36,973 nt of DNA from a virus. Positions 16,004-31,261 of the stretch are shown here, piece after piece (the first letter of the stretch is position 1; every line of letters starts with the position of its first letter). Below the pieces are notes generated by a model. That model made no database searches. It was not told the origin of the DNA and was given only the letters and a program-made list of their open reading frames with translations. Where the stretch lies: positions 1 through 36,973 of the IMG/VR virus record IMGVR_UViG_3300047457_000632; one strand, 5' to 3'. Both the position numbers and the translations under genes were made by a program.

Positions 16004-16804
16004 CTACGTCATGCAATGGCCAGATTCGCAGTGCATTTCCTCATCATCGAACATGTCTACCGTGTCAGCCTCGAGTAGTGTGCGCAGTGGGCGTTGCTTA
16101 TTCCACAAGTACACCTCGTCTTTGTTGCCAAACTTTTTGCGCTTGGCGTTAAGGATATCTTCAAGCTCAATCACCTGCGTGAAGAGTTGCGGCTCTTTTG
16201 CCTTGAGTTGAATCCAGTCATAGTCACTCTTGTATGGACAGAACCAACACGACGACTTTGGCGGCACTGGCAATCCTGCATCAGCAATAATCTGCTGGCA
16301 CTGCTGACGACTTAAGCGTAGGTCAATGAGTGGGTATTCTTTGCGCGTAAGCACGTCACGTTCAGGATCATCGGTGCGCATTCGATGAACCTCATCAATG
16401 CTGATACCAACACCAACTGGAATGCGATTAGTGCGAGATGCGCCAAGCACGTCACGACAGTAACGGTCAATGACCTGTACTTTCCACTTGGTCGTGCAGT
16501 TGCGATAGCCAGGACCAGCACCTTTCATGCGCACTGGAATAGCGATATCGTTGTAATCCTCAACGAGTGCCTCGAGTAATGTCTTCCCATGATTCTTGCG
16601 ATCCCACGACATCTCTACGTAGGTGATGCCATTGTTGTTGGCATACGGCACAACGGTTTCGTTGATGTACTCAATTGTGCGTGGATTCTCACTATCGTTG
16701 CCTACGTTGGCAAAAAGAAAGTGCGTGTATGGCAGTTTCCCTTGAGCGGAGAGCACCATAGCTGCCATACTCTGCACGCCACCACCAAAGCTAAATACTC
16801 TCAT
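16004..16804 (-). CDS. PAPS-reductase/PP-loop family protein, IbrA-like
   Basis: 266 residues. PP-loop SFGGGVQSM (5-13) is a variant of the SGGxDS nucleotide-binding loop. The adenine nucleotide alpha-hydrolase fold continues with LFANVGNDSENPRTIEYI. Cys103 (RNCTTKW) and the CWFC pair (186-189) could ligate an Fe-S cluster, as in sulfur-transferring members. Relatives include PAPS reductases, DndC and IbrA. IbrA-type proteins pair with ParB-like partners, one of which lies at 12439-12990. The reaction here is unproven; sulfur transfer or nucleotide-dependent regulation are both possible. The start overlaps the previous stop (ATGA). Confidence 0.8.
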   Translation of the reverse strand: MRVFSFGGGVQSMAAMVLSAQGKLPYTHFLFANVGNDSENPRTIEYINETVVPYANNNGITYVEMSWDRKNHGKTLLEALVEDYNDIAIPVRMKGAGPGYRNCTTKWKVQVIDRYCRDVLGASRTNRIPVGVGISIDEVHRMRTDDPERDVLTRKEYPLIDLRLSRQQCQQIIADAGLPVPPKSSCWFCPYKSDYDWIQLKAKEPQLFTQVIELEDILNAKRKKFGNKDEVYLWNKQRPLRTLLEADTVDMFDDEEMHCESGHCMT

Positions 16805-17082
16805 TGTTTCACCGTCGCTTCGTATGTACCTTCTGGCGTTTCGACATTGTAGACCACGCCACTTGAAACGTAGCGCAAAAACTCTACCACTGGTTGTCCC
16901 ACGTAGCCAGTATGCTCACATGCGGCTTTCCCACACGCCTTAGCGCGTCCATTCGCCATAATGTCGTACACAATTCCGTCAATCTCAACCTCATATCGTG
17001 CTGGCATTGGTTCGCTCTCTTTCCCCGCAATTAGATTATAAATAGCATCACGTACTAATTTGTTCAGTCCTCGTTCTTCCAT
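16801..17082 (-). CDS. Small hypothetical protein
   Basis: 93 residues from ATG 17082, which has a strong AAAGGGGAGA site five bases upstream (an ATG further upstream lacks one). The start is helical (MEERGLNKLVRDAIYNLIAG). A strand-rich middle follows with two cysteines (AKACGKAACEH), then a beta end (GVVYNVETPEGTYEATVKQ). It has no family I recognise. It overlaps the reductase by ATGA and the lysozyme-like gene by 19 bases, so it may be co-regulated with either. Confidence 0.6.
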   Translation of the reverse strand: MEERGLNKLVRDAIYNLIAGKESEPMPARYEVEIDGIVYDIMANGRAKACGKAACEHTGYVGQPVVEFLRYVSSGVVYNVETPEGTYEATVKQ

Positions 17083-17489
17083 ACCGCTCTCCCCTTTCGT
17101 ACTACTATCCACTGCTCCCAACATGGCTTACTGGCACTCCAGTGCCACCACCCATACCCGCCATCCCATAGATGCTGAAACATCGCATACTGCACGTCTG
17201 GTGGTGCGTCTGCGGCTGTGGGGTACATGCCGAGAAAACGTGTGCTGGTCATTTCGTACACGCCATTGGCTAGTGGGATGATTGCCCAACGATCATCTTT
17301 TGACCACACCCAGTACGAGTTGAACTGCCATGCGCCAGTGTCAATTGTGCCATCACGATTGACGTTGACTGCGGTGTAGTTGATAGTGCCAAGCGTCTTG
17401 GTGTCACCGCTCTCACACGTCGCTATTGCTGTCGCTTCTGGGCTGATTGTCATCATCAGTGCGGTCAGGAGGAGTAACCTCCCCATCAT
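17064..17489 (-). CDS. Secreted lysozyme / transglycosylase-like protein
   Basis: About 141 residues. A signal peptide is clear (MMGRLLLLTALMMTISPEATA, cut before IATCESG). CESGD provides the catalytic Glu of the lysozyme-like superfamily, followed by NYTAVNVNRDGTIDTGAWQF, which matches the NxxAxNxNxxGxxDxGxxQ pattern of transglycosylase/lysozyme families. Two later aromatic segments (YAMFQHLWDGGYGWWHW) are consistent with substrate binding. It would cut peptidoglycan after export and so could act in lysis or in entry. It is made with the late operon, separate from the amidase cassette. GGAAG precedes the start. Confidence 0.7.
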   Translation of the reverse strand: MMGRLLLLTALMMTISPEATAIATCESGDTKTLGTINYTAVNVNRDGTIDTGAWQFNSYWVWSKDDRWAIIPLANGVYEMTSTRFLGMYPTAADAPPDVQYAMFQHLWDGGYGWWHWSASKPCWEQWIVVRKGRAVWKNED

Positions 17490-18048
17490 CAAACTTCCGA
17501 ATTGTTTCAAGTGTGTGTACAAGTGTAAGCCCTCCTAGCCACTTAATGTAGCTCACCATGTGCCTGTGCACCTCTTTTATGCTTTTCGCAACCATGCCAT
17601 TCGACTCGCAGTAGATTGGCAACGTTGCAATCACATACCGATTACGACCAACTTTGCGCGCTTGAAAGACTGTTCGATAGAAGAGCTGGAGTTGCACACG
17701 CACTATCTGGTTAGCGTTATCGTAGTGATAGATTACTTCTTGTGGGTGTGTTTTGCGAACAAGTTTCATCTTGTACTTCTTCTGTAAAACATCGTCCAAA
17801 TCGTACTTGACTTGCGCGTCAATCCACTCACGATTTGATAATCCAAACACCATGTCCAGCTTCAACGCAAAGTCTGCCGTAATGCGGACGTACCCCTTGA
17901 ATATGTCGTTGATGTGCTTTTTGGTGACGCCAGTGCGCATTGCAAGTTCGGTCTGTGTCATTCCTAACCGAGTGAGATGGATATAGAGTAGCTCACTCGG
18001 CGTTACGTAGTCTGGAGAAACAATTGGTTTGCCAATCTTGCGACCCAT
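17413..18048 (-). CDS. HigA-like XRE regulator with extra C-terminal domain
   Basis: 211 residues from ATG 18048 after GAGGAGTAAC. Residues ~5-75 match the HigA/XRE antitoxin family: TPSELLYIHLTRLGMTQTELAMRTGVTKKHINDIFKGYVRITADFALKLDMVFG then REWIDAQVKYDL. The remaining ~110 residues are alpha/beta, with VQLQLFYRTVFQARKVGRNRYVIATLP and a charged end (PPDRTDDDNQPRSDSNSDV), a domain I cannot name. No HigB-type toxin lies beside it, so it is more likely a transcription regulator than an antitoxin. Its end overlaps the lysozyme-like gene by 77 bases. Confidence 0.65.
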   Translation of the reverse strand: MGRKIGKPIVSPDYVTPSELLYIHLTRLGMTQTELAMRTGVTKKHINDIFKGYVRITADFALKLDMVFGLSNREWIDAQVKYDLDDVLQKKYKMKLVRKTHPQEVIYHYDNANQIVRVQLQLFYRTVFQARKVGRNRYVIATLPIYCESNGMVAKSIKEVHRHMVSYIKWLGGLTLVHTLETIRKFDDGEVTPPDRTDDDNQPRSDSNSDV

Positions 18049-18049
18049 G

Positions 18050-18139
18050 TTACTCCTCGTGATCAGCGTAATGGTCAATTACCAGAATCGGCACAAGAAA
18101 CATTGCGAGCAGTGCTAAGAGAATCAAAAAGTCAATCAC
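18050..18139 (-). CDS. 29-residue single-span membrane peptide
   Basis: A short gene of 29 codons starting at GTG 18139 (GTGA overlap with the upstream stop) after GAGAGGA, and ending one base before the regulator ATG. The peptide begins MIDFLILLALLAM, continues FLVPILVIDHY and ends in an acidic tail ADHEE, i.e. one membrane helix. The tight overlaps on both sides support translation. Possible roles include a small holin-like or membrane-modulating peptide. Confidence 0.55.
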   Translation of the reverse strand: MIDFLILLALLAMFLVPILVIDHYADHEE

Positions 18140-18509: not shown

Positions 18510-18541
18510 CTATACCGTATCACAAGAGCAAAAAGATACGG
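18510..18541 (-). promoter_or_regulatory. Phage-type promoter A, head of the leftward operon
   Basis: The minus strand reads CCGTATC (18541-18535), 17 bp, CGGTATAG (18517-18510), matching the six-site consensus. The two half-elements form an inverted repeat CCGTATC-N13-GATACGG. TTGA precedes the -35 element, so host sigma70 might use it weakly. It drives the structural operon from 18489 leftward. Confidence 0.65.
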
Positions 18542-18563
18542 TCAATTTCCATTTATTCTTTTG

Positions 18564-18572
18564 TGATATAAT
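18564..18572 (+). promoter_or_regulatory. Extended -10 promoter for the tRNA-like cluster
   Basis: TGATATAAT is a perfect extended -10 (TGnTATAAT), 60 bases before the first tRNA-like element, with no clear -35. It is divergent from promoter A, and the inverted repeat at 18515-18541 lies between them. Confidence 0.55.
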
Positions 18573-18631
18573 AATCATATCGCACGGAAGATTGACACTT
18601 TGCTGCTGGTAAATCACCACCGTGCGTTCAT

Positions 18632-18736
18632 GGGTTGGTAGCTCAACGGTAGAGCATATAGGCAGAAACTGACGATCGTTGGTATCGAACAGGAAGTAAG
18701 TCTAGCGTATTGGTTCGAATCCAATTCAACCCACCA
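18632..18736 (+). tRNA. tRNA-like element 1, enlarged anticodon region
   Basis: The 7-bp acceptor GGGTTGG/TCAACCC, D-arm GCTC-AACGGTA-GAGC, T-arm ATTGG-TTCGAAT-CCAAT and encoded CCA are canonical. Between D- and T-arms are 52 bases instead of ~21. A TAGGC/GTCTA stem (18659-18663 with 18700-18704) encloses 36 bases, in which CTG-A-CGAT...ATCG-AA-CAG forms a second hairpin. No ordinary 7-base anticodon loop with U33 is visible, so the amino acid cannot be assigned. It may contain a small insertion, or be a tRNA mimic. Confidence 0.6.
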
Positions 18737-18739
18737 CTT

Positions 18740-18820
18740 GGGGATGTAGCATATAGGTAATGCGCCCATCATAGTATCAGTATGGGAAGAATGTAGGTTC
18801 GATTCCTACGAGCCCCACCA
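18740..18820 (+). tRNA. tRNA-like element 2, 12-base anticodon loop
   Basis: D-arm GCAT-ATAGGTA-ATGC and T-arm GTAGG-TTCGATT-CCTAC are intact and CCA is encoded. The acceptor has two mismatches (GGGGATG with GAGCCCC). The natural anticodon stem CCCAT/ATGGG leaves a 12-base loop. An alternative stem TCATA/TATGG gives a 7-base loop with U33 and anticodon AUC, but then five bases separate it from the D-arm. It begins four bases after element 1 ends. Confidence 0.55.
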
Positions 18821-18824
18821 ATTT

Positions 18825-18899
18825 GGGGGATGTAGCGTATTGGTGAAAGCGGCCGCCCATTGCGGAAGAGATCGGGTTCGATTCCTGGCTCCCCCACCA
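18825..18899 (+). tRNA. tRNA-like element 3, possible CAT anticodon
   Basis: 75 bases with acceptor GGGGGAT/CTCCCCC (six pairs), T-arm TCGGG-TTCGATT-CCTGG and encoded CCA. The anticodon region CCG-CCCATTG-CGG gives anticodon CAT, but position 33 is C instead of U and the stem is only three strong pairs. The D-stem (GCGT/AAGC) has one mismatch. It is the most tRNA-sized of the three, yet non-standard. Confidence 0.55.
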
Positions 18900-18903
18900 C
18901 TAG

Positions 18904-18935
18904 ACAAGTCACGAGCAATCGTGGCTTGTTTTTTT
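18904..18935 (+). terminator. Rho-independent terminator after the tRNA-like cluster
   Basis: An 11-bp stem ACAAGTCACGA / TCGTGGCTTGT (one T-G pair), loop GCAA, followed by seven T. It ends the rightward tRNA transcript. Confidence 0.85.
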
Positions 18936-19209
18936 GCACAAAAATGCGCTGACCCGATCTCTCGCTATCATGGTCATGCATGTAGGTCGAGAGTGGATAT
19001 GCCAGCGCAGGAAAATTGTACCACTATTTGCCATCAACGATGCCACCGCACATGCGAAATGCGGAGCATTTAGCACACATATATATATTATCTATATATG
19101 GTAGAAAAAACTTCTATACTTGACTAGAAGAAACTTCTATACTTTTGGTATAAGTATAGAAAAAAGTTCTATACTTGCTATAGAAGAAACTTCTATACTT
19201 TTAGTTGAC
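18936..19209. other. Intergenic region between tRNA terminator and methyltransferase
   Basis: No credible gene on either strand. It contains a short inverted repeat (AAATGC-GGA-GCATTT near 19060), an imperfect CTCTCG...CGAGAG pair at 18958-18992 and, on the right, the four iterons with their AT-rich flank. Confidence 0.6.
19100..19198. repeat. Noncoding iteron cluster, four palindromic sites
   Basis: Four copies of a near-palindrome, best form TATAGAAG-AAA-CTTCTATA, with its right half at 19111, 19134, 19166 (GTTCT variant) and 19190; spacings are 23, 32 and 24 bp. An AT-rich tract (ATATATATATTATCTATATATG) lies to the left. The same sequence is repeated inside the replication initiator gene at 28.82-28.91 kb. 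It is a likely initiator-binding locus: a second origin, an incompatibility/handcuffing site, or an operator. Confidence 0.75.
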
Positions 19210-20412
19210 TTAAAGAAACGGTGACTCAACAGCGTAATATGCAATTCTCTTTTTTGCAATTTCAACATACTCGGGGTTTATGTCAATTCCAATAAATTCA
19301 TTTCCCTCAAGCACTGCGGCGCACCCAGTCGAGCCTGAGCCGGTGAACGGGTCTAATACGATGCCACCCTTCGGCGTGACCATGCGCACCAAGTAGCGCA
19401 TCAAGGCGATGGGCTTGACGGTGGGATGGTGATTGGCTCTGCCGTCGGCGCTGTCTAGCCCCGCCTCGCGCTCAGCCTTCGACGCTTTGGCCACATAGAA
19501 AAAGCGTGATGCACCGCCGGCGTCACCCCCAAATGATTTTTCCCAATTTTTACCGCTGTATTTTCCATAAATATTACGTTGCTCACTTCTTAAATGATGA
19601 GGTTCTAAATTACCACTTTTCAATGTCCCACTCTGTTCGTCCAGCACCTGCGCCGCCTCCTCGTCGAATATGACGTTGGCGGGCCAGCGTCCGGCGGTTG
19701 GGCGTGGCTCGCCGTCTTTTAATCCATATTCATGAGATGCGGTGTCGTTGTTGCGTCCGTTGCCACCCCAACCAACAACATCGGTCCCCACCCTGCACCC
19801 GTCAATGTTCAACGCCCCAACGCCCCACGTCATCACATTGTCGGCAACGGTACCAATCAGTGGTTTGCGGGCGAGCACGGCGGGTTCATTGGCCGGCTTC
19901 AACGCAGTGCCCCAGCCGTGCCATGCCTTGGCGGCGTCGGTGCTGGGGGTGGTGATGGTTCGCAGTGCATTGGGTCTTCCTTTGTCAAAATCATGTACAA
20001 TAATTTTTTCATTTTTTCTTTTGCTAAAGTCATAATGCGGGTCTTCGACTCCCACCACCTCCCGCTCCGCTCCTGCCTGCTTATCAATCGCCTTGCTGAC
20101 ATCGAGCGACTTCGGGAATCCGCTCCCATAAATCCATTGGATGCAGTCCCGAATCTCAAAGCCCGCATCCTCGATGGCCACGGTCATGCGGTGATATGTC
20201 CGTGACCCGCCGAAGGCAATCAAATGTCCACCTGGCTTCAATACCCTCAGACACTGCTGCCATACGGTGATGTCGTAGGCAATGCCAGATTTATCCCATG
20301 CATTGCCCATAAATCCCAGCTCGTATGGTGGGTCGGTCACAATGCTATCAACGGAATTGTCAGGAAGTGACGCGAGAACTTGACGGCAGTCACCAAGATG
20401 AATTGTTGTCAT
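19210..20412 (-). CDS. DNA methyltransferase (N6-adenine / N4-cytosine, beta-type order)
   Basis: 400 residues. The catalytic motif DPPYELGFMG is near residue 28 and the SAM-binding motif DPFTGSGSTG near residue 358; motif order catalytic-then-SAM is that of beta-class N4-C/N6-A methylases. A long central region, rich in short Gly/His segments, is the probable target recognition area. Base composition switches sharply within the gene: G+C-rich blocks alternate with AT-rich ones at about 19530-19620 and 19975-20040. No restriction enzyme is adjacent, so it likely protects phage DNA or alters gene expression. I chose ATG 20412 over an adjacent GTG. Confidence 0.85.
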   Translation of the reverse strand: MTTIHLGDCRQVLASLPDNSVDSIVTDPPYELGFMGNAWDKSGIAYDITVWQQCLRVLKPGGHLIAFGGSRTYHRMTVAIEDAGFEIRDCIQWIYGSGFPKSLDVSKAIDKQAGAEREVVGVEDPHYDFSKRKNEKIIVHDFDKGRPNALRTITTPSTDAAKAWHGWGTALKPANEPAVLARKPLIGTVADNVMTWGVGALNIDGCRVGTDVVGWGGNGRNNDTASHEYGLKDGEPRPTAGRWPANVIFDEEAAQVLDEQSGTLKSGNLEPHHLRSEQRNIYGKYSGKNWEKSFGGDAGGASRFFYVAKASKAEREAGLDSADGRANHHPTVKPIALMRYLVRMVTPKGGIVLDPFTGSGSTGCAAVLEGNEFIGIDINPEYVEIAKKRIAYYAVESPFL

Positions 20413-20482
20413 CACTTTTCTCTTATCATTTGACCATCAGTCAATTTTGTCTTATAATGCTCTTGCATATACACGGCGATAC

Positions 20483-20527
20483 ACACACGAGTGCCAGCAG
20501 TTACCACCCCTGCTGGTGCTCGTGTGT
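20483..20527 (-). terminator. Strong hairpin after the holin gene
   Basis: An 18-bp stem (20483-20500 with 20510-20527, two G-T pairs) and a 9-base loop directly after the holin stop. There is no T-run on either side, so it may be Rho-dependent, protect the 3' end, or act as a pause. The methyltransferase gene starts 70 bases further on. Confidence 0.5.
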
Positions 20528-20704
20528 TTACCGCTGAATTGGTGCACTGGTGATGAACCGCAGTACCACATTCAAGAGTGCAGCCACAATCGCCAAGATG
20601 CGCTCGTCAAACACCGCAAAGTCCACAAACACCCCAACAATCGCCAACGCCAACACAATCACATTCACCCACACCGTCTTGCTCTGCCACCACTGCTTGC
20701 TCAT
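20528..20704 (-). CDS. Holin
   Basis: 58 residues from ATG 20704 after AGGGGGTAGT. It begins MSKQWWQSKTVWVNVIV. Two hydrophobic segments (VWVNVIVLALAIVGVFVDFAV and RILAIVAALLNVVLRFI) flank a short charged turn, and the end is basic (SAPIQR). The W-QSKTVW start is typical of small phage holins. It would permeabilise the membrane to release the amidase encoded just upstream. Its start lies nine bases from the stop of the XhlA-like gene. Confidence 0.75.
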   Translation of the reverse strand: MSKQWWQSKTVWVNVIVLALAIVGVFVDFAVFDERILAIVAALLNVVLRFITSAPIQR

Positions 20705-20712
20705 ACTACCCC

Positions 20713-20937
20713 CTACTGCATTAAATAGCGAATTACCAACGGCCAGACAAACGTGATGAATGCCAGCGCACCCTTCCAAAACGCGACCTGCTTCTCCTGC
20801 TCGACCAAGCGCGCTTTCACATCCGCGAGTTCCTGCTTAATCTGCCCAAATGACCCATCACCCTTTTTTAACTCGTCTCGAAACCCCTCGAGCAGGGTCT
20901 CAATTCGCATCAGTCGCTCATCAACCGTTGGTGGCAT
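20713..20937 (-). CDS. XhlA-like holin-associated membrane protein
   Basis: 74 residues. Residues 5-48 form a charged amphipathic/coiled-coil segment (ERLMRIETLLEGFRDELKK, IKQELADVKARLVEQEKQV), followed by one C-terminal membrane helix (FWKGALAFITFVWPLVIRYLM). This is the plan of XhlA, which works with the XhlB holin and an amidase in lysis cassettes. AAAGGAAT precedes ATG 20937. Its place between amidase and holin supports the assignment. Confidence 0.75.
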   Translation of the reverse strand: MPPTVDERLMRIETLLEGFRDELKKGDGSFGQIKQELADVKARLVEQEKQVAFWKGALAFITFVWPLVIRYLMQ

Positions 20938-20941
20938 TCCA

Positions 20942-21469
20942 CTATTCCTTTCGTAAGTAATACCCTACATACCCCCAGAATCGTAAGTATGGAAACTTGT
21001 ACGGATCGTACTTCCCCATTTTATCAATTCCCCCATGCGATGTCACCATTTCTATCTCGTATTTTCTCATCCACTCCGCAACTTGCTCTGCACAACTATC
21101 AACCTGTACATCTGGCCACGCATCCAATAACCGCTTGCTGCCAGTGTTCACTAACTCAATCCCTAGTGACATACTATTCGGTGTCACTACTGGCACTCCA
21201 CTACCCTTTCCAATTGTCCCAATCTCACTATTCCCTACATGATGCGCTATCACATCATCCCTTACCATCCGATATCGCGTCCCATCTTTCCCAATTACCA
21301 CATGCGCAGATACCCTGCGATCATTCTTCTGCAAATACTTTAGCTGGTCCTCTACCTTCCCATTCCCCCCAGTATGATGTAACACAATTACTCTTGGATT
21401 CCACCCACGCACTCCCCCTACTACACTCTCGTCTGCTGGGTACACTATCACCTTATGATTTGTTGGCAT
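20942..21469 (-). CDS. N-acetylmuramoyl-L-alanine amidase (endolysin)
   Basis: 175 residues, a single-domain amidase_2/PGRP-like enzyme. Zinc-site signatures: VIVLHHTGG (first His), SAHVVIGKDGTRYRMV, HHVGNSEIG, SLGIELVN and, near the end, TSHGGIDKMGKYDPYKF, which supplies the last His and the KxDP motif. It cleaves the bond between glycan and stem peptide. There is no signal peptide or cell-wall-binding domain, so it depends on the holin. AAAGGAG precedes the start. Confidence 0.92.
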   Translation of the reverse strand: MPTNHKVIVYPADESVVGGVRGWNPRVIVLHHTGGNGKVEDQLKYLQKNDRRVSAHVVIGKDGTRYRMVRDDVIAHHVGNSEIGTIGKGSGVPVVTPNSMSLGIELVNTGSKRLLDAWPDVQVDSCAEQVAEWMRKYEIEMVTSHGGIDKMGKYDPYKFPYLRFWGYVGYYLRKE

Positions 21470-21491
21470 ATCTCACTCTCCTTTCTCCAGT

Positions 21492-21497
21492 ATTGTA
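21492..21497 (-). promoter_or_regulatory. Possible -10 of the lysis cassette promoter
   Basis: TACAAT on the minus strand, 23 bases upstream of the amidase ATG; the -35 is poor (CATACC at 17 bp). Proposed only because the gene needs a promoter on this side of the divergent region. Confidence 0.35.
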
Positions 21498-21754
21498 CCC
21501 TCACTCACTCTTAGGGTATGCAACGTGCTCCCATCACCGTGCGCTCGTTGTGGCCAGTTGTGTGTGTATTGCTTACCGCTTGTCTTGGAGTGGCTAGAAT
21601 CAATTCCCGGGCTGAGTGGTCAACAAAGACCCTGCACTTTGTTTGTGTTAACCATTACGGCACGGCTCGGCACTGCCTCGAGGGTCGCGGGTCGGTCCTG
21701 TCGGTGGCACTGCCTCGAGGCTGGTCGGCTGGTTGGCTGGTTGGGGGCTGGTCG

Positions 21755-21810
21755 GCTCCGTGCTCCGTGCTCCGTGCTCCGTGCTCCGTGCTCCGTGCTC
21801 CGTGCTCCGT
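21755..21810 (+). repeat. Perfect tandem heptamer array, 8 x GCTCCGT
   Basis: Eight uninterrupted 7-bp units end 9 bp before the -35 of the sigma-operon promoter. Such arrays vary by slippage, and could be repeated binding sites or a spacing element. Confidence 0.9.
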
Positions 21811-21819
21811 GCTTACCAC

Positions 21820-21848
21820 TTGACACAAATACAATGATGATATACAAT
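21820..21848 (+). promoter_or_regulatory. Near-consensus sigma70 promoter of the sigma-factor operon
   Basis: TTGACA (21820-21825), 17 bp, TACAAT (21843-21848), the best host-type promoter in the window. Downstream, CACGG-N10-CCGTG is a possible operator or leader hairpin before the AGGAGGT site of the first gene. Confidence 0.8.
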
Positions 21849-21903
21849 GGTGCCACGGTATATCAATGCCGTGTGTGTATCGCTTGTATAGAGGAGGTCT
21901 GCT

Positions 21904-22176
21904 ATGGGTGCTCGTGTGCTGTGGGGTGTGTATCTGACTGATGGCCTGATTGCTCGCATGGGTGGCACGGGTCGGGGTCTGTATCTGACGTCGACCGTCA
22001 TCGACCGCTTGGACTACTTCGGCACTGCTGAGGCGTCTATGGACTACGGCACGGCCGTGTCAATGGCTCGTCGGCTGTCGGTGTCCTACGGTGAGGTGGC
22101 GGTCATCCGGTGGTCATCGTGTGGCAGTGGTGCGACGGTGGCCATATGCTATCGCAATGGTCAGGAGGTGCGCTAG
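21904..22176 (+). CDS. Small protein, first gene of the sigma operon
   Basis: 90 residues after a strong AGAGGAGGT site. It begins MGARVLWGVYLTDGLIARMG; the middle (YGTAVSMARRLSVSYGEVAVIRW) resembles the two proteins that follow, suggesting a duplicated small domain. It ends NGQEVR, the same last residues as the next gene, because the DNA there encodes an internal ribosome site (GGAGGTGCGCTAGTGA) that starts the next gene at an overlapping GTG. No known family. Confidence 0.65.
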   Translation: MGARVLWGVYLTDGLIARMGGTGRGLYLTSTVIDRLDYFGTAEASMDYGTAVSMARRLSVSYGEVAVIRWSSCGSGATVAICYRNGQEVR

Positions 22177-22346
22177 TGAGTACGTTCGTTTTCGTTCGTG
22201 GTGTCGGTACCTGGTTCTGTGAGACTCTCAAGGAGGCTAGACAATGTGCTCGTCGTGTGTCACGTCAGTACCCTGAGTCGGTCGCTACTATCGTCTGGTG
22301 TGGGCAAACGTTCGGGCACGCTATCAACGGCAAGGAGGTGCGCTAG
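22176..22346 (+). CDS. Small protein, second gene of the sigma operon
   Basis: 56 residues from GTG 22176, overlapping the previous stop (TAGTG) with GGAGGT ahead. MSTFVFVRGVGTWFCETLKEA, then CARRVSRQYPESVATIVW, shares the helix-then-strand pattern of its neighbours. It ends NGKEVR over an identical coupling element. No known family; because of position it may affect sigma factor activity or early host takeover. Confidence 0.6.
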   Translation: MSTFVFVRGVGTWFCETLKEARQCARRVSRQYPESVATIVWCGQTFGHAINGKEVR

Positions 22347-22681
22347 TGACTAACGCAATTAAAAACGCTCGAGGTTGGCAGGTGTCGGGCTCTTCTCGCA
22401 CGTTCGTGCGCTTGTGGTTCTGTCCTGAGGAAAATGCGGGGTTTCCCTACGCTGTTGTCGATGCGCCCTCACTCCGTGGTGCTGTGCGCTTGGCACACGC
22501 CGAAATGCGGTCGATGGCGTGCCGTGTGTATCCGTGGTATGTGTCCGCTGATGTGTGCGTGCGCCATGGTCGTGGTGCATACGATTTCGACGTGGTCGGT
22601 GGCTGGTCGTGGGCTGGTGGGCAGATCGTTTGGATGTCTAACGCTGATATGATTGCTAGCATGATGAAGGGTGGCAAGTAA
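22346..22681 (+). CDS. Small protein, third gene of the sigma operon
   Basis: 111 residues from GTG 22346, again TAGTG overlap after GGAGGT. It contains VSGSSRTFVRLWFCPEEN, a helix SLRGAVRLAHAEMRS and the aromatic end DFDVVGGWSWAGGQIVW. It shares a loose plan with the previous two. TAATG overlap leads into the sigma factor gene, so its amount is probably tied to the sigma factor; an anti-sigma role is conceivable but has no direct evidence. Confidence 0.6.
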   Translation: MTNAIKNARGWQVSGSSRTFVRLWFCPEENAGFPYAVVDAPSLRGAVRLAHAEMRSMACRVYPWYVSADVCVRHGRGAYDFDVVGGWSWAGGQIVWMSNADMIASMMKGGK

Positions 22682-23247
22682 TGACAACTCCGTTGCAATG
22701 GTACGTTAATTACCCTGAGCAATTGGCTCGGCTGGTTCGGTCGCTTGATTTCCGTATGGGCGGTATTGCTCTTGATGGCGTATCCGCTGAAGACGTGGTG
22801 CATGACGTCTTGGCATACCGTGGTGACTATCCTCTGACAGGCAACGTGTATAACTCGATGTACCGCTTGGCTCTCTCTCGCCTCCGTGACGTGATGCGCC
22901 ATCGCTCGTGTGGTGTGGTCAAGGTCGAGCAACTCGAACGTGACACCGTGGTTGTGTCTGAGTCTGCCGAGGTCGTAGCACTGCGCAATGTAGGGGAGTC
23001 GCACTTGCTCAAGCTGTGCGGTCGTCTTACCAATAAGCAATCGCAAGTTATCATCATGCACTACTACCTCGATATGTCATACGATGACATTGCATTGCGG
23101 TTAGGGTGTGGCGTGGGGTCTGTCAAATCGCTACGCAATCGGGCTATAGAACGTCTTCAGGAGCTAGGTCGGCTGATTGATGCCGACCTTGCGGAGAATA
23201 TGCCAATGGCACACGACACGAATAGCAACTTGACACGCTACTACTAG
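22681..23247 (+). CDS. ECF-like RNA polymerase sigma factor
   Basis: 188 residues. Residues ~35-80 are region 2: SAEDVVHDVLAYRGDYPL then YNSMYRLALSRLRDVMRHR, the AEDLVQ...WL.RIA..D..R pattern. Residues ~117-163 are region 4: LTNKQSQVIIMHYYLDMSYDDIALRLGCGVGSVKSLRNRAIERL, the classic LP..Q..V..L.Y...SY.EIA..LG...GTVKSR..RA...L motif. There is no region 1 or 3, as in group 4 (ECF) factors. It would bind host core RNA polymerase and select phage promoters. The six CCGTATC-N17-CGGTAKAT sites are the natural candidates. The operon is read from a host promoter. Confidence 0.85.
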   Translation: MTTPLQWYVNYPEQLARLVRSLDFRMGGIALDGVSAEDVVHDVLAYRGDYPLTGNVYNSMYRLALSRLRDVMRHRSCGVVKVEQLERDTVVVSESAEVVALRNVGESHLLKLCGRLTNKQSQVIIMHYYLDMSYDDIALRLGCGVGSVKSLRNRAIERLQELGRLIDADLAENMPMAHDTNSNLTRYY

Positions 23248-23257
23248 AATCACCTCG

Positions 23258-23293
23258 ACACCTCCCACGCTACGGCGTGGGGGGTGTTTTTTT
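23258..23293 (+). terminator. Terminator of the sigma operon
   Basis: A 13-bp stem ACACCTCCCACGC / GCGTGGGGGGTGT (one T-G pair), loop TACG, seven T. It lies 11 bases after the sigma factor stop. Confidence 0.88.
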
Positions 23294-23334
23294 GTGCCTT
23301 TTTGCCAGTGGTACTTTTTGGCTATGCCAGTGGT

Positions 23335-23600
23335 GCACATAGTTGCACGGTGTAGCGTGGTCGTGGTGTCCTGCTGTGGTCGATGTGGTGTAGCGTGGTC
23401 GTGTCCTGTGCTGTCCTTGATGTCCTGTAGCGTGGTCGTGGTGTAGCGTGCTGTGGTGTGCTGTGTCCTGTGGGTGTGCTGTGCTGTGTCCTCTGGTCGT
23501 GCTGTGTGCTGTGTGCTGTGGGCACGGCATGGTGTAGCGTGCTGTGTGCTGTGGGTGTAGCGTGCTGTGCTGTGGTGTAGCCATGGGGAGGTGCTGTGCT
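23335..23600 (+). repeat. Low-complexity G/T-rich repeat tract
   Basis: About 265 bases almost free of A on the plus strand, built from a few words: TAGCGTGGTCGTG (three times), TAGCGTGCTGTG (four), GTGTCCTG and GCTGTG. Long frames on the other strand are His/Thr/Gln repeats and overlap the sigma gene, so they are not genes. Origin and role are unknown; a recombination hot spot, packaging or polymerase-blocking site are possible. Confidence 0.75.
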
Positions 23601-23741
23601 GTCCTGCTGTGGTCGTGGCTATCCGTTTACACTTTACAACGTGGACCACATCAACGCCACCACCAGACGCGCCAAGCATGGCCAAAAAACGGCCAAAAAT
23701 CTGGAGCACAGCACGACCAGGCACACGGCCGCACTATCTCC

Positions 23742-23767
23742 TACTACTCGGCGTCAAAATTCGCGCG
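23742..23767 (+). repeat. Upstream element, copy 1 (isolated)
   Basis: TACTACTCGGCGTCAAAATT followed by CGCGCG, 26 bp identical to 24728-24753. Here no CCGTATC element follows; instead GGGTAGAT comes directly, as if the promoter core had been deleted. Confidence 0.65.
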
Positions 23768-23780
23768 GGTAGATGCAACA

Positions 23781-23806
23781 AGGCCGGCCTATTGCTAGGC
23801 CGGCCT
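23781..23806. terminator. Perfect 11-bp inverted repeat (terminator-like, no T-run)
   Basis: AGGCCGGCCTA-TTGC-TAGGCCGGCCT. It is very stable in either direction and lies where rightward and leftward transcription meet (the leftward gene ends at 23864). The lack of a T-run leaves open a terminator, a protein-binding site or a recombination site. Confidence 0.55.
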
Positions 23807-23863
23807 CGGTTCTGGTTCGTGTGTGTGTTGGTTGGTTGGTTGGTTCGTTGCTTCTGTTGTTTT

Positions 23864-24544
23864 TTAGTGGTAGTTGAACTGGATTACTCGGCGCGTTGCG
23901 TTGCTCTTAAATCGTGACGGTGAACACAACATACAATCAATGCATTTAATACGACCATTTGTAATTTGGTTAGGGCATGGCACTATCTTCACATCATCTT
24001 GTAGTACCGCGTTTTCATTCCCTTGCTTGACGGTGGTACACATCCACCCAAGCGCGCGTGCTTCTGCTATTTGCTCGTATGTATCACACGATGCCATAAA
24101 GTAGCGTTTAAGCGGTTGCGCGTCCTCGTCTTGCCAGCAGTGAGTATATCCTATGATTGTTATACCTACATCGAGAAGTTGTTCACATACATCTACAATG
24201 GCATTCACATACTCAGCATGTACTTTTTCGGTCTTTGGGTCTATGATGTCACCGACCTCGTGAAAACGAACAAGTGATATATACTTATATTCCTCGTCGA
24301 AGTCACGACACAAAAAGAACTTTTTAAACTCGTTGCGGAACTTGTCTACATCAATACCACCGTTTTTGTTGTGGAATGCCACGCGCCCTTTTAGCGTGTA
24401 GCACTTGTACGGACTTTCATTTTCAGGATGAAACACACACGACAACGGGCAATTGTCACCGACATTCGTATACGTTGCAATAACTTCGTGATGTCGATTA
24501 CGACCAGATAACTTGCTGACCTCACTATTAAAAACGACCTTCAT
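23864..24544 (-). CDS. Cysteine-rich protein, Gp88-like family
   Basis: 226 residues beginning MKVVFNSEVSKLSGRNRHHEVIATYTNVGDNCPLSCVFH. The Cys patterns CPLSC, YKCYTLKG, GYTHCW, MASCDT and, near the end, IKCIDCMLC, together with LVRFHEVGDI, resemble a phage family related to gene product 88 of actinophages and possibly Fe-S or radical-SAM-like proteins (from memory, uncertain). It is the only leftward gene in the early right-hand block and has its own phage-type promoter (B). Function unknown. Confidence 0.6.
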   Translation of the reverse strand: MKVVFNSEVSKLSGRNRHHEVIATYTNVGDNCPLSCVFHPENESPYKCYTLKGRVAFHNKNGGIDVDKFRNEFKKFFLCRDFDEEYKYISLVRFHEVGDIIDPKTEKVHAEYVNAIVDVCEQLLDVGITIIGYTHCWQDEDAQPLKRYFMASCDTYEQIAEARALGWMCTTVKQGNENAVLQDDVKIVPCPNQITNGRIKCIDCMLCSPSRFKSNATRRVIQFNYH

Positions 24545-24577
24545 ACAATAACCTCACTATATAATAATATGCCTACA

Positions 24578-24609
24578 ATCTACCGTATAGATGATAGAAA
24601 ACGATACGA
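24578..24609 (-). promoter_or_regulatory. Phage-type promoter B
   Basis: The minus strand reads TCGTATC (24609-24603), 17 bp, CGGTAGAT (24585-24578), 34 bases before the ATG of the Gp88-like gene. One mismatch from the six-site consensus. Confidence 0.6.
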
Positions 24610-24727
24610 CGGTATACACATTACACAATAGGACCAATTGCAGCACATCGAGACGATCACCACGACTGGCACCGCGGCTATTGCGCAACAAGCGCGAAAC
24701 GCGACGCGCGGCGCGCGCATTTTTTTA

Positions 24728-24753
24728 TACTACTCGGCGTCAAAATTCGCGCG
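24728..24753 (+). promoter_or_regulatory. Upstream element, copy 2
   Basis: 26-bp element identical to 23742-23767, ending 8 bp before the CCGTATC of promoter C. It is preceded by a G+C palindromic run (GCGCGAAACGCGACGCGCGG) and seven T. Its fixed place before promoter cores suggests an activator or repressor site. Confidence 0.6.
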
Positions 24754-24761
24754 CATATTTG

Positions 24762-24793
24762 CCGTATCTTTTCGGTGTGCGTGGTCGGTAGAT
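24762..24793 (+). promoter_or_regulatory. Phage-type promoter C
   Basis: CCGTATC (24762-24768), 17 bp, CGGTAGAT (24786-24793). The 42-bp stretch 24762-24803 is repeated exactly at 25243-25284 (promoter D). The gene begins at 24830. Confidence 0.7.
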
Positions 24794-24829
24794 AGGTGTG
24801 AGTCGTTTGTATATGGGAGGTTTGCTGTT

Positions 24830-25189
24830 ATGTTACTTTATCCTACTCAGGCGGAGAAAGAGCGTTTTAGCGAGTATGTGATTCGACAAGCATTCAATGA
24901 TGCGCAAGAAAAGATTGCAAACTTTTCTCCAACGTTTGCGTGTGGGTTTGCGTGGTTGGATGTCGAGGCGGTCGGTGCTATGGCAAAAGTGCTCAAACAG
25001 ATTGGTTTTACCAAAGTCACTGGCAAGCGCAATACGTACCGTAAGCACATCCAGATTGACACGCAAATGGTGATGACACAATACGAGTTTGCGACACACG
25101 TTGCAAAAATGCTTCTCGAATATGCGCGCGATAAAGTCGGCAAGCAAATCGGTTTGCGTGGTGCGAAAGTTGATTACATCCTAGACTAA
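24830..25189 (+). CDS. Hypothetical early protein
   Basis: 119 residues from ATG 24830 after GGGAGG. It is helical and basic: YPTQAEKERFSEYVIRQAFNDAQEKIANF, a small hydrophobic patch (TFACGFAWLDVEA), then KQIGFTKVTGKRNTYRKHIQI and a helical end KMLLEYARDKVGKQIGLRG. No family recognised. It is a single-gene unit with its own phage-type promoter and terminator. Its basic charge would suit nucleic-acid binding (inference). Confidence 0.6.
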   Translation: MLLYPTQAEKERFSEYVIRQAFNDAQEKIANFSPTFACGFAWLDVEAVGAMAKVLKQIGFTKVTGKRNTYRKHIQIDTQMVMTQYEFATHVAKMLLEYARDKVGKQIGLRGAKVDYILD

Positions 25190-25203
25190 ACAAAACACAC
25201 AAT

Positions 25204-25240
25204 AAAAAACCGTGTCAGCGTAATGCTGGCGCGGTTTTTT
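25204..25240 (+). terminator. Terminator abutting promoter D
   Basis: A 14-bp stem (AAAACCGTGTCAGC / GCTGGCGCGGTTTT, two T-G pairs), loop GTAAT and six T. Its T-run ends two bases before the CCGTATC of the next promoter. Confidence 0.88.
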
Positions 25241-25242
25241 AT

Positions 25243-25274
25243 CCGTATCTTTTCGGTGTGCGTGGTCGGTAGAT
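25243..25274 (+). promoter_or_regulatory. Phage-type promoter D
   Basis: CCGTATC (25243-25249), 17 bp, CGGTAGAT (25267-25274); identical to promoter C over 42 bp but without the 26-bp upstream element. Confidence 0.7.
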
Positions 25275-25307
25275 AGGTGTGAGTTGTTCGTATAATTGGA
25301 GGAAGTT

Positions 25308-25640
25308 ATGAAGTACAGAGTTGTGGTGTTACATTGTGATCGTGTTGCTGGTATGTACGTGGTTGATGCAGAGCATACTCCTGTTACATCACTGCCAGAA
25401 TTTTGGTTGCGGAGACACGCAGATGAAAATGCTAAAATGCAATCAAATGGTGATGACATCAATATGTATCGTGTTAGCACTCAGTACAACGCATCGCATG
25501 ATAATGACAACTTGCAACATACGTATGCAGTAATCACAGATGACAATTTGATTATGGCAACGTATCGCAATGGAGAAACAAAATCATATGCAATGCATTC
25601 ACACGATGGTTTTTTGATTACGAGTCGCGTGTTATCCTAG
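25308..25640 (+). CDS. Hypothetical early protein
   Basis: 110 residues from ATG 25308 with GGAGGAAG ahead. It is alpha/beta: MKYRVVVLHCDRVAGMYVVDAEHTP, then a polar Asn/Asp/His-rich middle (QYNASHDNDNLQHTYAVITDDN), then strands LIMATYRNGETKSYAMHSHDGF. No signal peptide or membrane segment, and no family I recognise. It is a single-gene unit between two strong terminators. Confidence 0.6.
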   Translation: MKYRVVVLHCDRVAGMYVVDAEHTPVTSLPEFWLRRHADENAKMQSNGDDINMYRVSTQYNASHDNDNLQHTYAVITDDNLIMATYRNGETKSYAMHSHDGFLITSRVLS

Positions 25641-25653
25641 CGTGCATATTTAT

Positions 25654-25692
25654 AAATACCGTGCCAGTGTAATGCTGGCACGGTATTTTTTT
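25654..25692 (+). terminator. Rho-independent terminator
   Basis: A perfect 14-bp stem AAATACCGTGCCAG / CTGGCACGGTATTT, 7-base loop, then a T-run. Stem and loop sequence resemble the terminator at 25204, suggesting a duplicated gene-terminator cassette. Confidence 0.92.
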
Positions 25693-25767
25693 GCACTCGA
25701 TGCTGGTATACATTACACATCTGGCCACAACCCCACCACCAACACCCATCACCCCATGATACACATA

Positions 25768-25796
25768 TTGCATTGATAAATCATCCATGATACAAT
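25768..25796 (+). promoter_or_regulatory. Sigma70-type promoter upstream of promoter E
   Basis: TTGCAT (25768-25773), 17 bp, TACAAT (25791-25796). It would let host polymerase transcribe the recombination/replication genes before the phage sigma factor is made. Confidence 0.6.
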
Positions 25797-25819
25797 AGTA
25801 ATTAGCACATATATTAATA

Positions 25820-25845
25820 TACTACTCGGGGTAAAATTACGCGCG
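25820..25845 (+). promoter_or_regulatory. Upstream element, copy 3
   Basis: 22 of 26 bases match copies 1 and 2 (TACTACTCGGGGTAAAATTA then CGCGCG). The centre GTAA-AA-TTAC is a perfect inverted repeat, suggesting a dimeric regulator. It ends 9 bp before the CCGTATC of promoter E. Confidence 0.6.
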
Positions 25846-25854
25846 CAGATTTGA

Positions 25855-25886
25855 CCGTATCTTTTCCTCGTGCGTATACGGTATAT
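25855..25886 (+). promoter_or_regulatory. Phage-type promoter E
   Basis: CCGTATC (25855-25861), 17 bp, CGGTATAT (25879-25886), preceded by TTGA as in promoter A. The two elements nearly form the inverted repeat seen at A. It drives 25937 and genes beyond. Confidence 0.68.
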
Positions 25887-25936
25887 GTGTAGACGTCGCA
25901 AGACGTTTGGTTCTTCTTCTTTGCTAGGAGTGTATC

Positions 25937-26452
25937 GTGAAAAAACACAACCCAACCCATGTCGAGATGTTGCTCATGCTCGACGAAATCGACGAGTCAA
26001 TCACCAGCGTGGCCAGTGAGAGTGACGGCAATCTGATTGCGCACATGCGTCACAGCATGCATGAGGACAGCATGGTGTCTGACGCCGAGATTATGGACGC
26101 CATCAACGAGTGGCGTGAGATTCACTACGTGCCAGCAGTCACTGACATTGAGAGCGACATTGCAATGTTCGTATCTCTCAAGGGCAAAGCTGAGGTGATT
26201 GAAGGACAAATCAAAGATGTGCGCACGCGCATCCATGAGTACGTCACCACCAATGGCACGACTAAGACCGAGCTGGCTACCGCATCACTGACAAAAGCGT
26301 CAACGCGTGTCACCTATGATGCCAAGATGCTTGACTCACTTATGGCAACCATGGTGGCCAATGGACACCACGAGTATGCTGAGGTGTTGAGCCATGCGCG
26401 CAAGGAGACCACTGGTGAGCCAGTCCTGTTGATTAAGCGTAATAAGGAGTAA
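25937..26452 (+). CDS. Putative Gp157/Gam-like helical early protein
   Basis: 171 residues, mostly helical and acidic (VEMLLMLDEIDESITSVASES, AVTDIESDIAMFVSLKGKAEVIEGQIKDVRTRIHEYV). A conserved-looking end follows: TKTELATASLTKASTRVTYDAKMLDSLMATMVANGHHEYAEVLSHARKETTGEPVLLIKRN. The layout (coiled coil then small domain ending in a strand) resembles siphovirus Gp157 or Gam-type nuclease-inhibitor proteins, and such genes sit upstream of recombination proteins, as here. The resemblance is from memory and modest. Confidence 0.5.
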   Translation: MKKHNPTHVEMLLMLDEIDESITSVASESDGNLIAHMRHSMHEDSMVSDAEIMDAINEWREIHYVPAVTDIESDIAMFVSLKGKAEVIEGQIKDVRTRIHEYVTTNGTTKTELATASLTKASTRVTYDAKMLDSLMATMVANGHHEYAEVLSHARKETTGEPVLLIKRNKE

Positions 26453-26454
26453 TC

Positions 26455-26898
26455 ATGAAAAAGTTCATTGTCATTGCTGTGGTGTTTAGCTTCTGCGCTG
26501 TCCTTGGCACGTGTGTCAAGCCAACCACGCCAGCCACGCAGACACGCCCAACTGACGTGCCAACGAGTACCACTGAGAAACCTACCTACACGGTGAGTAT
26601 GTGCGACCGTTGGACGTGGACGGAGAACACGCTCGAGGTACTAGAGATGATGCCAGACGCTATCACGCTTGATCTCGTCGATGCACTTATCACAAAGTAT
26701 GATGCGATTCGCGCTCCATATGACTGTGGTCACAGTGAGTTGTTGGACCAAATCGACACCGAAGTACGACTGGCACTTGCCGCAAAACGTACTGCATTCA
26801 TGGTCAGTGAAGGCAAGGCAATCAACCGCAATGCAGAAGCCGAAATGCACATGATAGCTGCAACCAAGGCTCTCACTGAGTACACCGCAAAGCAGTAG
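26455..26898 (+). CDS. Secreted lipoprotein-like protein
   Basis: 147 residues. MKKFIVIAVVFSFCAVLGTC is a signal peptide with a lipobox-like LGTC, followed by a Thr/Pro-rich linker (KPTTPATQTRPTDVPTSTT). Then comes a helical domain with a Cys pair (SMCDRW ... YDCGHS), ending IAATKALTEYTAKQ. Early-expressed phage lipoproteins commonly block injection by other phages (superinfection exclusion); that role is inferred from placement. LGTC is not a perfect lipobox (Thr at -1), so simple secretion is also possible. It is coupled closely (two bases) to the gene before. Confidence 0.65.
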   Translation: MKKFIVIAVVFSFCAVLGTCVKPTTPATQTRPTDVPTSTTEKPTYTVSMCDRWTWTENTLEVLEMMPDAITLDLVDALITKYDAIRAPYDCGHSELLDQIDTEVRLALAAKRTAFMVSEGKAINRNAEAEMHMIAATKALTEYTAKQ

Positions 26899-26902
26899 TT
26901 CA

Positions 26903-26946
26903 TACCGCACCAGTACACCGTATCGCTATGGTGTACTGGTGCGGTA
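26903..26946 (+). terminator. Perfect 17-bp hairpin overlapping promoter F
   Basis: The stem is 26903-26919 with 26930-26946, loop GTATCGCTAT, five bases after the lipoprotein stop. No T-run. The -35 element of promoter F spans the end of the 5' arm and the loop, and the -10 starts in the 3' arm, so terminator/attenuator and promoter share DNA. Confidence 0.7.
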
Positions 26947-26949
26947 GAT
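26918..26949 (+). promoter_or_regulatory. Phage-type promoter F
   Basis: CCGTATC (26918-26924), 17 bp, CGGTAGAT (26942-26949). The next gene starts at 26974 after AAAGGAG, giving a short leader. Confidence 0.65.
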
Positions 26950-28241: not shown

Positions 28242-28547
28242 ATGCGCGCAAAACAACTTGACATCATTGGGAACACCACGGTTACGACCACGGTTGATGA
28301 GCATGTGTACAATGAGGTGGTAGCAACAGGAAATCTGTCACAAGCAATTCGTACTGCATATGATGCGTGGGTAGGTGCGTACTGCCCATTGGTGCCAGCA
28401 CCATTTAGTCGCAAGCACGTGAGCATCGGTTGCTACATGACTGAAGATGACTACTACAGCACACGAGCCATTGCACTTTCACGTCGATGGTCAATCGCCA
28501 AGACACTACGTACCGCACTCAACTGGTACTACTATCATCGGAGCTAG
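28242..28547 (+). CDS. Hypothetical protein
   Basis: 101 residues after AAAGGAGAAT. Two similar patterns, VDEHVYNEVVATGNLSQAIRTAYDAWV and MTEDDYYSTRAIALSRRWSIAKTLRTALNWYY, each start with a short strand-like stretch and then two helices. These look like two ribbon-helix-helix-type units and might bind DNA. Three bases separate it from the initiator gene. Confidence 0.55.
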   Translation: MRAKQLDIIGNTTVTTTVDEHVYNEVVATGNLSQAIRTAYDAWVGAYCPLVPAPFSRKHVSIGCYMTEDDYYSTRAIALSRRWSIAKTLRTALNWYYYHRS

Positions 28548-28549
28548 TC

Positions 28550-29302
28550 ATGCATTACACACGAATACCACAAGCGTATTTTGATATACTCCCACAGCTA
28601 TCTGGTGCAGATGCCAAGATCCTGCTTGTGGTATTTCGGTGTACGCTTGGGTGGAATAAGAACACCGCAATCATTAGCTTATCAGTCATGGCTAAACAGA
28701 CTGGTGTGACCACACGTCAGATTACTGAATCCATCAAGCGCATACGGCTGATGGGGATTGTCACGGTAGAGCAGACAACTAAAGGGTATCGCTATACCGT
28801 CAACGATACACCAACATCACCAACTATAGAAGAAACTTCTATAGAAGAAACTTCTACACCAGAGCCAACTATAGAAGAAACTTCTATAAAAGTATCGAAG
28901 AAAGTTCTACCATATAAAGAAAAGAAAGAAAGTATAGATACTACATCTCACGATGTAGTACGAAAGCGAGCACGCAAGCCAAAGCAAGTGCCACCAGCTG
29001 ACGAGCAAGAGCGTACCGCACTTACGATATTTCGACAGGTGCATAGACTAAACGTACCGATTGCGGTACGAGACACGGTAGTACAACAGGTGACAGATCT
29101 CGACAGGTGGACACAGATTTGCACCGAGTGGATAGGTAAGGGCTTTAGACCTGGCAACGTAAATGGATGTCTACAAGTGTATCAGCAGGGATGGAGAACA
29201 AATGAGTCACGACAACGACAACGCGGAGATGTACAGGAACAACGTCGTAACGAGCGGATGGCGCAAAATCTTGCCGAGTATGACAAGCAAAACCCCACTT
29301 GA
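28550..29302 (+). CDS. Replication initiator, lambda O-like, carrying the origin iterons
   Basis: 250 residues from ATG 28550 after GGAG. Residues ~1-85 are a phage replication protein O-type winged helix: YTRIPQAYFDILPQLSGADAKILLVVFRCTLGWNKNTAIISLSVMAKQTGVTTRQITESIKRIRLMGIVTVEQTTKGYRYTV. The linker (residues ~90-125) is repetitive (TIEETSIEET ... PTIEETSI) because its DNA is made of the palindromic iterons. The C-terminal part (QVTDLDRWTQICTEWIGKGFRPGNVNGCLQVYQ) resembles helicase-loader interacting tails. It would bind its own gene and recruit the DnaC-like loader, whose gene overlaps it by 101 bases. Confidence 0.85.
   Translation: MHYTRIPQAYFDILPQLSGADAKILLVVFRCTLGWNKNTAIISLSVMAKQTGVTTRQITESIKRIRLMGIVTVEQTTKGYRYTVNDTPTSPTIEETSIEETSTPEPTIEETSIKVSKKVLPYKEKKESIDTTSHDVVRKRARKPKQVPPADEQERTALTIFRQVHRLNVPIAVRDTVVQQVTDLDRWTQICTEWIGKGFRPGNVNGCLQVYQQGWRTNESRQRQRGDVQEQRRNERMAQNLAEYDKQNPT
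28823..28909. repeat. Origin iterons inside the initiator gene
   Basis: Four iterons, best form TATAGAAG-AAA-CTTCTATA, with right halves at 28836, 28851, 28881 and 28904 (the last a GTTCT variant). They encode TIEETSI-like repeats. An AT-rich, purine-rich stretch follows (about 28910-28950), as expected for an unwinding element. Same sequence as the cluster at 19.1 kb. Confidence 0.8.
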
Positions 29303-30845: not shown

Positions 30846-31261
30846 TGCTTCCATATCCACCCAGCATTAACCATGCGTATCAAATGCACCATGGGCGCAA
30901 GATACTTAAACCAGAAGTGGCTGAGTATAAATCAACCATTGCGCTCATGGTGGCAAGTGCCAAGCAAACGTATGGAGAACCACCAACACCATTTCAAATG
31001 TTTGTCTATGTGTATCCACCAGATAGACGAAAGCGCGACTTGGACAACATATTGAAAATAATGCAAGACGGTGTTGCCACTGGCTTATGCGTTGACGATT
31101 CAATCATCAATGCAATAGCAGTAATTCGATGCGATATTGTTCAACACGGTTTGGTAGAAGTGATATTTACGGAATGTAATGCTGACGTATGGATTGAACA
31201 ACACGGCAGATGTCAGCATGATAGGCTTGAGAAGTTTGGACTTTTGTTGCCAAATCGTTGA
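30845..31261 (+). CDS. RusA-family Holliday junction resolvase
   Basis: 138 residues from GTG 30845 (TAGTG overlap after GGGGAG). Family signatures are clear: LPYPPSINHAYQ at the start, YVYPPDRRKRDLDNILKIMQDG (metal-binding Asp residues) and LCVDDSIINAIAVIR. It resolves recombination and replication junctions before packaging. About 25 residues beyond the usual end overlap the convergent leftward gene (31167-31664) by some 95 bases, a real tail-to-tail overlap. Confidence 0.9.
   Translation: MLPYPPSINHAYQMHHGRKILKPEVAEYKSTIALMVASAKQTYGEPPTPFQMFVYVYPPDRRKRDLDNILKIMQDGVATGLCVDDSIINAIAVIRCDIVQHGLVEVIFTECNADVWIEQHGRCQHDRLEKFGLLLPNR

Follow-up and report, generated by a model that had tools for sequence, protein, structure and literature searches.

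Six spaced promoter-like sites and an ECF-type sigma factor gene in the genome of a small phage

Introduction

The IMG/VR virus record IMGVR_UViG_3300047457_000632, analysed here over its whole length of 36,973 bases (the window), contains six copies of the spaced pair CGTATC-N17-CGGTA, all intergenic and each pointed toward a gene, together with an open reading frame for an ECF-like sigma factor. This raises the question of whether a small phage may read promoters dispersed over its genome with a sigma factor of its own. ECF factors require both of their promoter elements and an almost fixed spacer between them. Among phages, such factors are known from phiEco32 gp36 and its relatives (PMC4281155, PMC4331800, PMC7881722). 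A sequence-only reading of the window had proposed a system of this kind, and its claims were followed up here in the window and in related contigs (about 20) gathered by terminase and capsid searches. A search for the host, with terminase and capsid profiles, gave no match among 84,980 genomes of bacteria and archaea.

Results

Position and statistics of the six sites

All six sites claimed by the sequence-only reading were recovered where it had placed them, on the same strands and with a 17-bp spacing in every case. As pattern matches, these candidate sigma promoters are P1 (CCGTATC-N17-CGGTATAG, 18541-18510, minus strand), P2 (TCGTATC-N17-CGGTAGAT, 24609-24578, minus strand), P3 (CCGTATC-N17-CGGTAGAT, 24762-24793, plus strand), P4 (25243-25274, plus strand, with the spacer of P3), P5 (CCGTATC-N17-CGGTATAT, 25855-25886, plus strand) and P6 (CCGTATC-N17-CGGTAGAT, 26918-26949, plus strand). 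Their placement ahead of gene starts in the matching direction, also claimed before, was borne out, with distances of 20-50 bp between box and start. These were 33, 36, 33, 50 and 24 bp for P2 to P6, respectively, and 20 bp for P1 when counted from the second ATG of its gene (18489), as compared with 2 bp from the start in the ORF list (18507). A Shine-Dalgarno sequence (AGGAGGTGA) precedes ATG 18489, which is likely to be the actual start.

Searching the window with the pattern of that reading and up to three mismatches gave 7 matches against 0.77 expected, a number that none of 100 shuffled sequences reached; the seventh match is the partly palindromic site at 18510-18541 read in reverse. 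The window has 8 copies of the shorter pair GTAYC-N17-CGGT, where 300 dinucleotide shuffles gave 0.26 on average and 2 at most, and chance repetition was rejected on this ground as the origin of the sites. At spacings from 8 to 29 other than 17, the pair GTAYC/CGGT was found 0-3 times each. A genome-wide search over all spaced pairs revealed others that score similarly, several of which are palindromes that were counted once per strand; a spaced pair in six copies is not extraordinary in itself, and it is position and conservation that set these sites apart. With regard to position, 9.4% of the window is intergenic and 1.15% of placements are both intergenic and at most 80 bp upstream of a gene on the same strand, a situation in which 6/6 sites are found. 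The six sites cannot all be counted as separate, as had been claimed, since P3 and P4 (starting at 24762 and 25243) have an identical spacer and 96% identity over 52 bp, which indicates a duplication to be counted as about one event. This duplication is recent, and the independent sites in the window are about five.

A further GTACC-N17-CGGTA was considered at 29052 (plus strand), inside the gene at 28487-29302 and 111 bp upstream of a DnaC-like gene. It is conserved in the relative G003 described below (counterpart at 23510), and it was left uncounted because its GTACC half is also present in relatives without the sigma gene, the Val-Pro codons being conserved.

Genes behind the sites

The first gene behind P1 (18136..18489, minus strand) has a 36% identical ortholog in G003 only. 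Gene order suggests that P1 probably precedes the minus-strand packaging/structural operon too. Behind P2 lies a DUF7227/PHROG 2554 gene (23864..24544, minus strand), with an ortholog likewise in G003 only. On the plus strand, P3 is followed by a 119-aa gene (24830..25189; G003 ortholog 33% identical), P4 by a 110-aa gene taken from the ORF list (25308..25640), whose product matched no Pfam family up to E 1, and P5 by the gene at 25937..26452. The genes behind P6 (26974..31261, plus strand), whose functions were assigned by eye from the translations, probably form a replication module, with a DnaC-like ATPase at 29163-30134 and a likely RusA-like resolvase at 30758-31261.

An intrinsic terminator (25202-25242) stands directly upstream of P4. 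P6 is overlapped by an inverted repeat (26903-26946; 20-nt arms, 4-nt loop, RNA fold of -37.5 kcal/mol, z -10) without a U-run, and the G003 counterpart of P6 also overlaps a terminator-like hairpin. With a strong terminator before P4 and, in both phages, a strong hairpin at P6, the units appear to be shielded from read-through.

The sigma gene and its operon

The open reading frame at 22681..23247 (plus strand, 188 aa), previously called an ECF-like sigma factor, proved to be a real one, and its product matches Pfam Sigma70_r4_2 (PF08281) with E 6.6e-13 and 48.5 bits, against a cut-off of 25.7. Residues 8-162 match PHROG 1740 (RNA polymerase sigma factor), a single-sequence search matched the bacterial sigma factor 5uxx, and a profile made of the window protein and its G003 ortholog best matched the Mycobacterium tuberculosis ECF factor SigL (positions 29-166). 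Residues 36-163 could be aligned, with no long gap, to a sigma factor of 164 aa (its positions 33-160). The protein is small and appears to have domains 2 and 4 only, without regions 1.1 or 3, as is characteristic of ECF factors. No Pfam Sigma70_r2 match was obtained, region 2 being covered by the weaker PHROG 1740 and PDB ECF alignments. These alignments support a predicted likeness to ECF factors over both domains, with region 4 alone passing a curated cut-off. An AlphaFold model built from the two sequences was poor (mean pLDDT 46).

The operon of the sigma gene was said to have a host consensus promoter and none of the spaced sites, and both statements hold. The window has a single perfect host-type promoter, TTGACA-N17-TACAAT at 21820-21848 (plus strand), which precedes this operon, and no CGTATC-N17-CGGTA site does so. 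The operon also contains small ORFs upstream of the sigma gene (21904..22681, plus strand), which are without relatives in the nine compared records. An adjacent anti-sigma gene, a common though not universal companion of ECF genes, was not recognised.

Low-complexity tandem repeats flank the sigma operon at 21755-21810 and 23340-23620, and G003 has different repeats of a similar sort at the equivalent positions.

A relative with a diverged sigma factor

G003 (IMG/VR 3300034101_002578; 36,556 bases) matches the window over almost its full length in circularly permuted form, and its large terminase (TerL) is 85-86% identical to that of the window. Its sigma ortholog, encoded at 16794-17279, is 30% identical and also above the PF08281 cut-off. 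In G003 a site is present at 6/6 orthologous positions, with strand and 17-bp spacing unchanged: 14469 (minus) for P1, 19150 (minus) for P2, and 19299, 19773, 20182 and 21268 (all plus) for P3 to P6, respectively. The spacers of orthologous sites are identical at 3-11 of the 17 positions. The pattern GTAYC-N17-CGGTW was counted 9 times in this genome and not at all at any other spacing from 8 to 27.

The left box differs between the two phages, being CCGTACC in four G003 sites, GTGTACC in one and GCGTATC in one, so that T is replaced by C in 5/6 sites of G003. A matrix trained on G003 ranked the window sites 1-5 and 8 among all positions. The reciprocal matrix, trained on the window, ranked three G003 sites 1, 2 and 4 and the remaining three 32, 33 and 69, as box divergence would predict, yet this uneven ranking may be taken as the weaker support. 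The G003 sigma operon is also preceded by a host-type promoter (TTGACA-N18-TACAAT, 16162-16191). Altogether, the data support that boxes and sigma factor may have diverged together, over a scope of two lineages, G003 being the sole sigma-bearing relative found.

Wider searches of viral contigs gave the same picture: a single-sequence search with the sigma factor detected no relative, one with the two-sequence alignment detected G003 only, and searches with the early proteins A2 and A3 detected G003 and, besides it, two remote partial matches. The motif is absent from the 774 bases read of one of the latter (L115). An exact scan for the motif over all viral contigs revealed 62 contigs with a single site, which look like chance, and none with several.

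Consensus of the twelve sites

The twelve sites of both phages gave the consensus cCGTAYCTTTTT-N12-CGGTAWA. Invariant in 12/12 sites are the 17-bp spacing, CGGT, a single T within the T-run and, in the left box, GTA and the final C. Each of the five positions following this box is T in nine or more of the 12 sites, and the remaining spacer is low in information. As a sequence pattern, this consensus resembles an ECF -35 element with T-run plus a -10 element beginning with CGGT. A T-run close to the -35 element is expected in ECF promoters (PMC7881722), and M. tuberculosis sigma-H uses the elements GGAAYA and GTT with an optimal spacer of 17 bp (PMC6411747).

Relatives without the sigma factor

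A small set of six related records (G004, G009, G014, G015, G019 and G020; TerL 61-69% identical) share structural and many replication genes with the window, and are without the sigma, DUF7227, 24830 and 18136 genes. Several of them are fragments, and absence was judged where the orthologous region is present. A PF08281 search of these relatives gave nothing above the cut-off. Weak Pfam sigma-4 matches in G014, G015, G017 and G020 were rejected: they cover only the second, helix-turn-helix half of the domain, and their position points to an HTH regulator.

The sequence-only reading had suggested checking whether the spaced motif goes together with the sigma gene in related phages. While G003 has all six orthologous sites, each of the six sigma-less relatives has 0-1 sites, which is the chance level. 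In four of them (G020, G014, G004 and G009), a perfect TTGACA-N16/17-TANNAT precedes early genes. The G020 ortholog of the gene behind P5 lies about 75 bp downstream of TTGACA-N17-TACTAT instead, in upstream sequence identical in G015, and TTGACA-N16/17-TACAAT is found upstream of early genes in the other three. In the window and in G003, on the other hand, there is exactly one TTGACA-N16-18-TANNAT each, upstream of the sigma operon.

Other elements in the window

Three tRNA genes were detected by Rfam at 18632-18736, 18740-18820 and 18826-18899 (plus strand; 44.3, 38.1 and 33.0 bits, respectively). All end in CCACCA and ARAGORN calls none of them; by eye, their anticodon loops are abnormal, with about 36, 12 and 5 nt vs the usual 7. 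The equivalent region of G003 has one ordinary tRNA-Met. The abnormal tRNAs could be decoys, intron-bearing or decaying.

The sequence TAGAARAAACTTCTATACTTK is present in four copies at 19102-19201, a non-coding stretch 90% conserved in G003, and looks like an operator array. A separate repeat, TACTACTCGG-N10-CGCGCG, was found in three plus-strand copies at 23742, 24728 and 25820. G003 has three copies as well, and in the sigma-less G014, G015 and G020 it is clustered before the early operon. This repeat is independent of the sigma factor and possibly represents origin iterons or an operator.

Discussion

We consider it very probable, on this comparative evidence, that the phage makes an ECF sigma factor from a host-type promoter and that this factor reads the six CGTAYC/CGGTA sites as promoters. 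Host polymerase would transcribe the sigma operon from the promoter at 21820, and the small two-domain product would bind the core enzyme of the host. CGTAYC with the T-run would be the -35 element, read by domain 4, and CGGTA, at a fixed 17 bp, the -10 element, read by domain 2; transcription is predicted to begin 20-50 bp upstream of each of six units. Four of these are on the plus strand, where P3 to P5 would each drive an early gene or gene pair and P6 the replication module, while P2 would serve the minus-strand unit with the DUF7227 gene and P1 a minus-strand unit probably including the packaging and structural operon. From the directly observed sites and their placement, the sigma homology, the conservation with co-divergence in G003 and the absence from sigma-less relatives, we infer binding, transcription, timing and the extent of the P1 transcript. 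As for the cascade proposed by the sequence-only reading, its link between sigma factor and promoters is supported by the relatives, whereas the order of expression and the control of the structural operon are likewise steps that we infer.

It could be argued that the sites are operators for a phage repressor or activator, such as the HTH_3 protein encoded at 17413-18051, with host polymerase transcribing the genes. Three window sites are near-palindromic (CGTAT-N15-ATACG), and the HTH_3 gene is also confined to the window and G003, so that co-occurrence alone cannot single out the sigma factor. The six sites of G003 are all non-palindromic, however, which lowers the case for a palindromic operator, and the orientation, spacing, gene distance and asymmetry of the sites are those of promoters. 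Furthermore, no host-type core promoter was found between site and gene in either phage, with up to three mismatches allowed and TA...T kept, and the recognition region of the HTH protein (KKHINDI) is the same in both phages, whereas the -35 box changed. We regard operators as an unlikely explanation.

An arrangement like the middle promoters of T4, in which a phage activator would bind CCGTAYC at -35 and the host main sigma factor would use a -10 within CGGTATAnT, is very unlikely in our view, even though some boxes hold TATAGT or TATTAT, near TATAAT. The invariant CGGT falls mostly outside such a TATAAT box, whose final T is present in about 5 of the 12 sites; moreover, the ordinary host-type promoters of these phages match TTGACA/TANNAT perfectly, which makes the six sites a class apart. 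It is hardly conceivable that they are a conserved repeat, either replication iteron or mobile repeat, with no promoter role. Two of them do belong to a duplicated 52-bp stretch and the TACTACTCGG-N10-CGCGCG repeat lies near two sites, but the latter is a separate element that also occurs in sigma-less relatives, and the sites use both strands, are each aimed at a gene start and have mostly divergent spacers.

If the sigma factor does read these promoters, window and G003 would offer natural sigma/promoter pairs, possibly mutually orthogonal, and the promoter-level map of gene control obtained for an uncultured small phage would go beyond motif-spotting by way of comparative genomics. We propose tentatively, as a possibility that falls a little short of an even chance, that a small-phage lineage gained an ECF sigma factor and switched its promoters genome-wide from host to sigma type, with one host-type promoter left for the sigma factor itself, and that sigma factor and six promoters then co-diverged into such pairs. 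The two sigma phages and their sigma-less relatives would form a compact natural series on how promoters are moved to a new sigma factor, suited also to the question of how -35 specificity tracks changes in domain 4.

In T4 and SPO1, the phage sigma factors gp55 and gp28 turn host polymerase to later genes; these belong to other sigma families, with other promoter types and in far larger phages. No small siphovirus with a comparable system was found in the literature covered, which left subscription journals mostly outside. Closer to the present case, phiEco32 gp36 (Kuravirus), 7-11 and SU10 also encode an ECF sigma factor that recognises a dedicated promoter class; in SU10 the gene for it, like the operon described here, has a host-consensus promoter (PMC4281155, PMC4331800). 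The phiEco32-type promoters consist of a -10 motif (tAATGTATAtA; TGTGATGTTATA) with no recognisable -35 (PMC5333181), in contrast to the strong -35 element, T-run and 17-bp spacing seen here, and phiEco32-type genomes are twice the size of this one and unrelated to it as far as tested. A tblastn search with the sigma factor over 50,697 phage records, which may or may not include phiEco32 and 7-11, matched only 55 residues of one unannotated record. Neither sequence homology to the phiEco32/7-11 sigma group nor its -10-only promoter type seems to be present, and the range of phage ECF systems would be widened beyond this known type by one with canonical -35/-10 promoters. The M. tuberculosis factors SigL and SigH resemble the present system in the alignment of domains 2 and 4, in two short stringent elements and in a spacing of about 17 bp (PMC6411747), and differ from it in that the factor here is phage-encoded and the boxes are GTAYC and CGGTA instead of GGAAYA and GTT.
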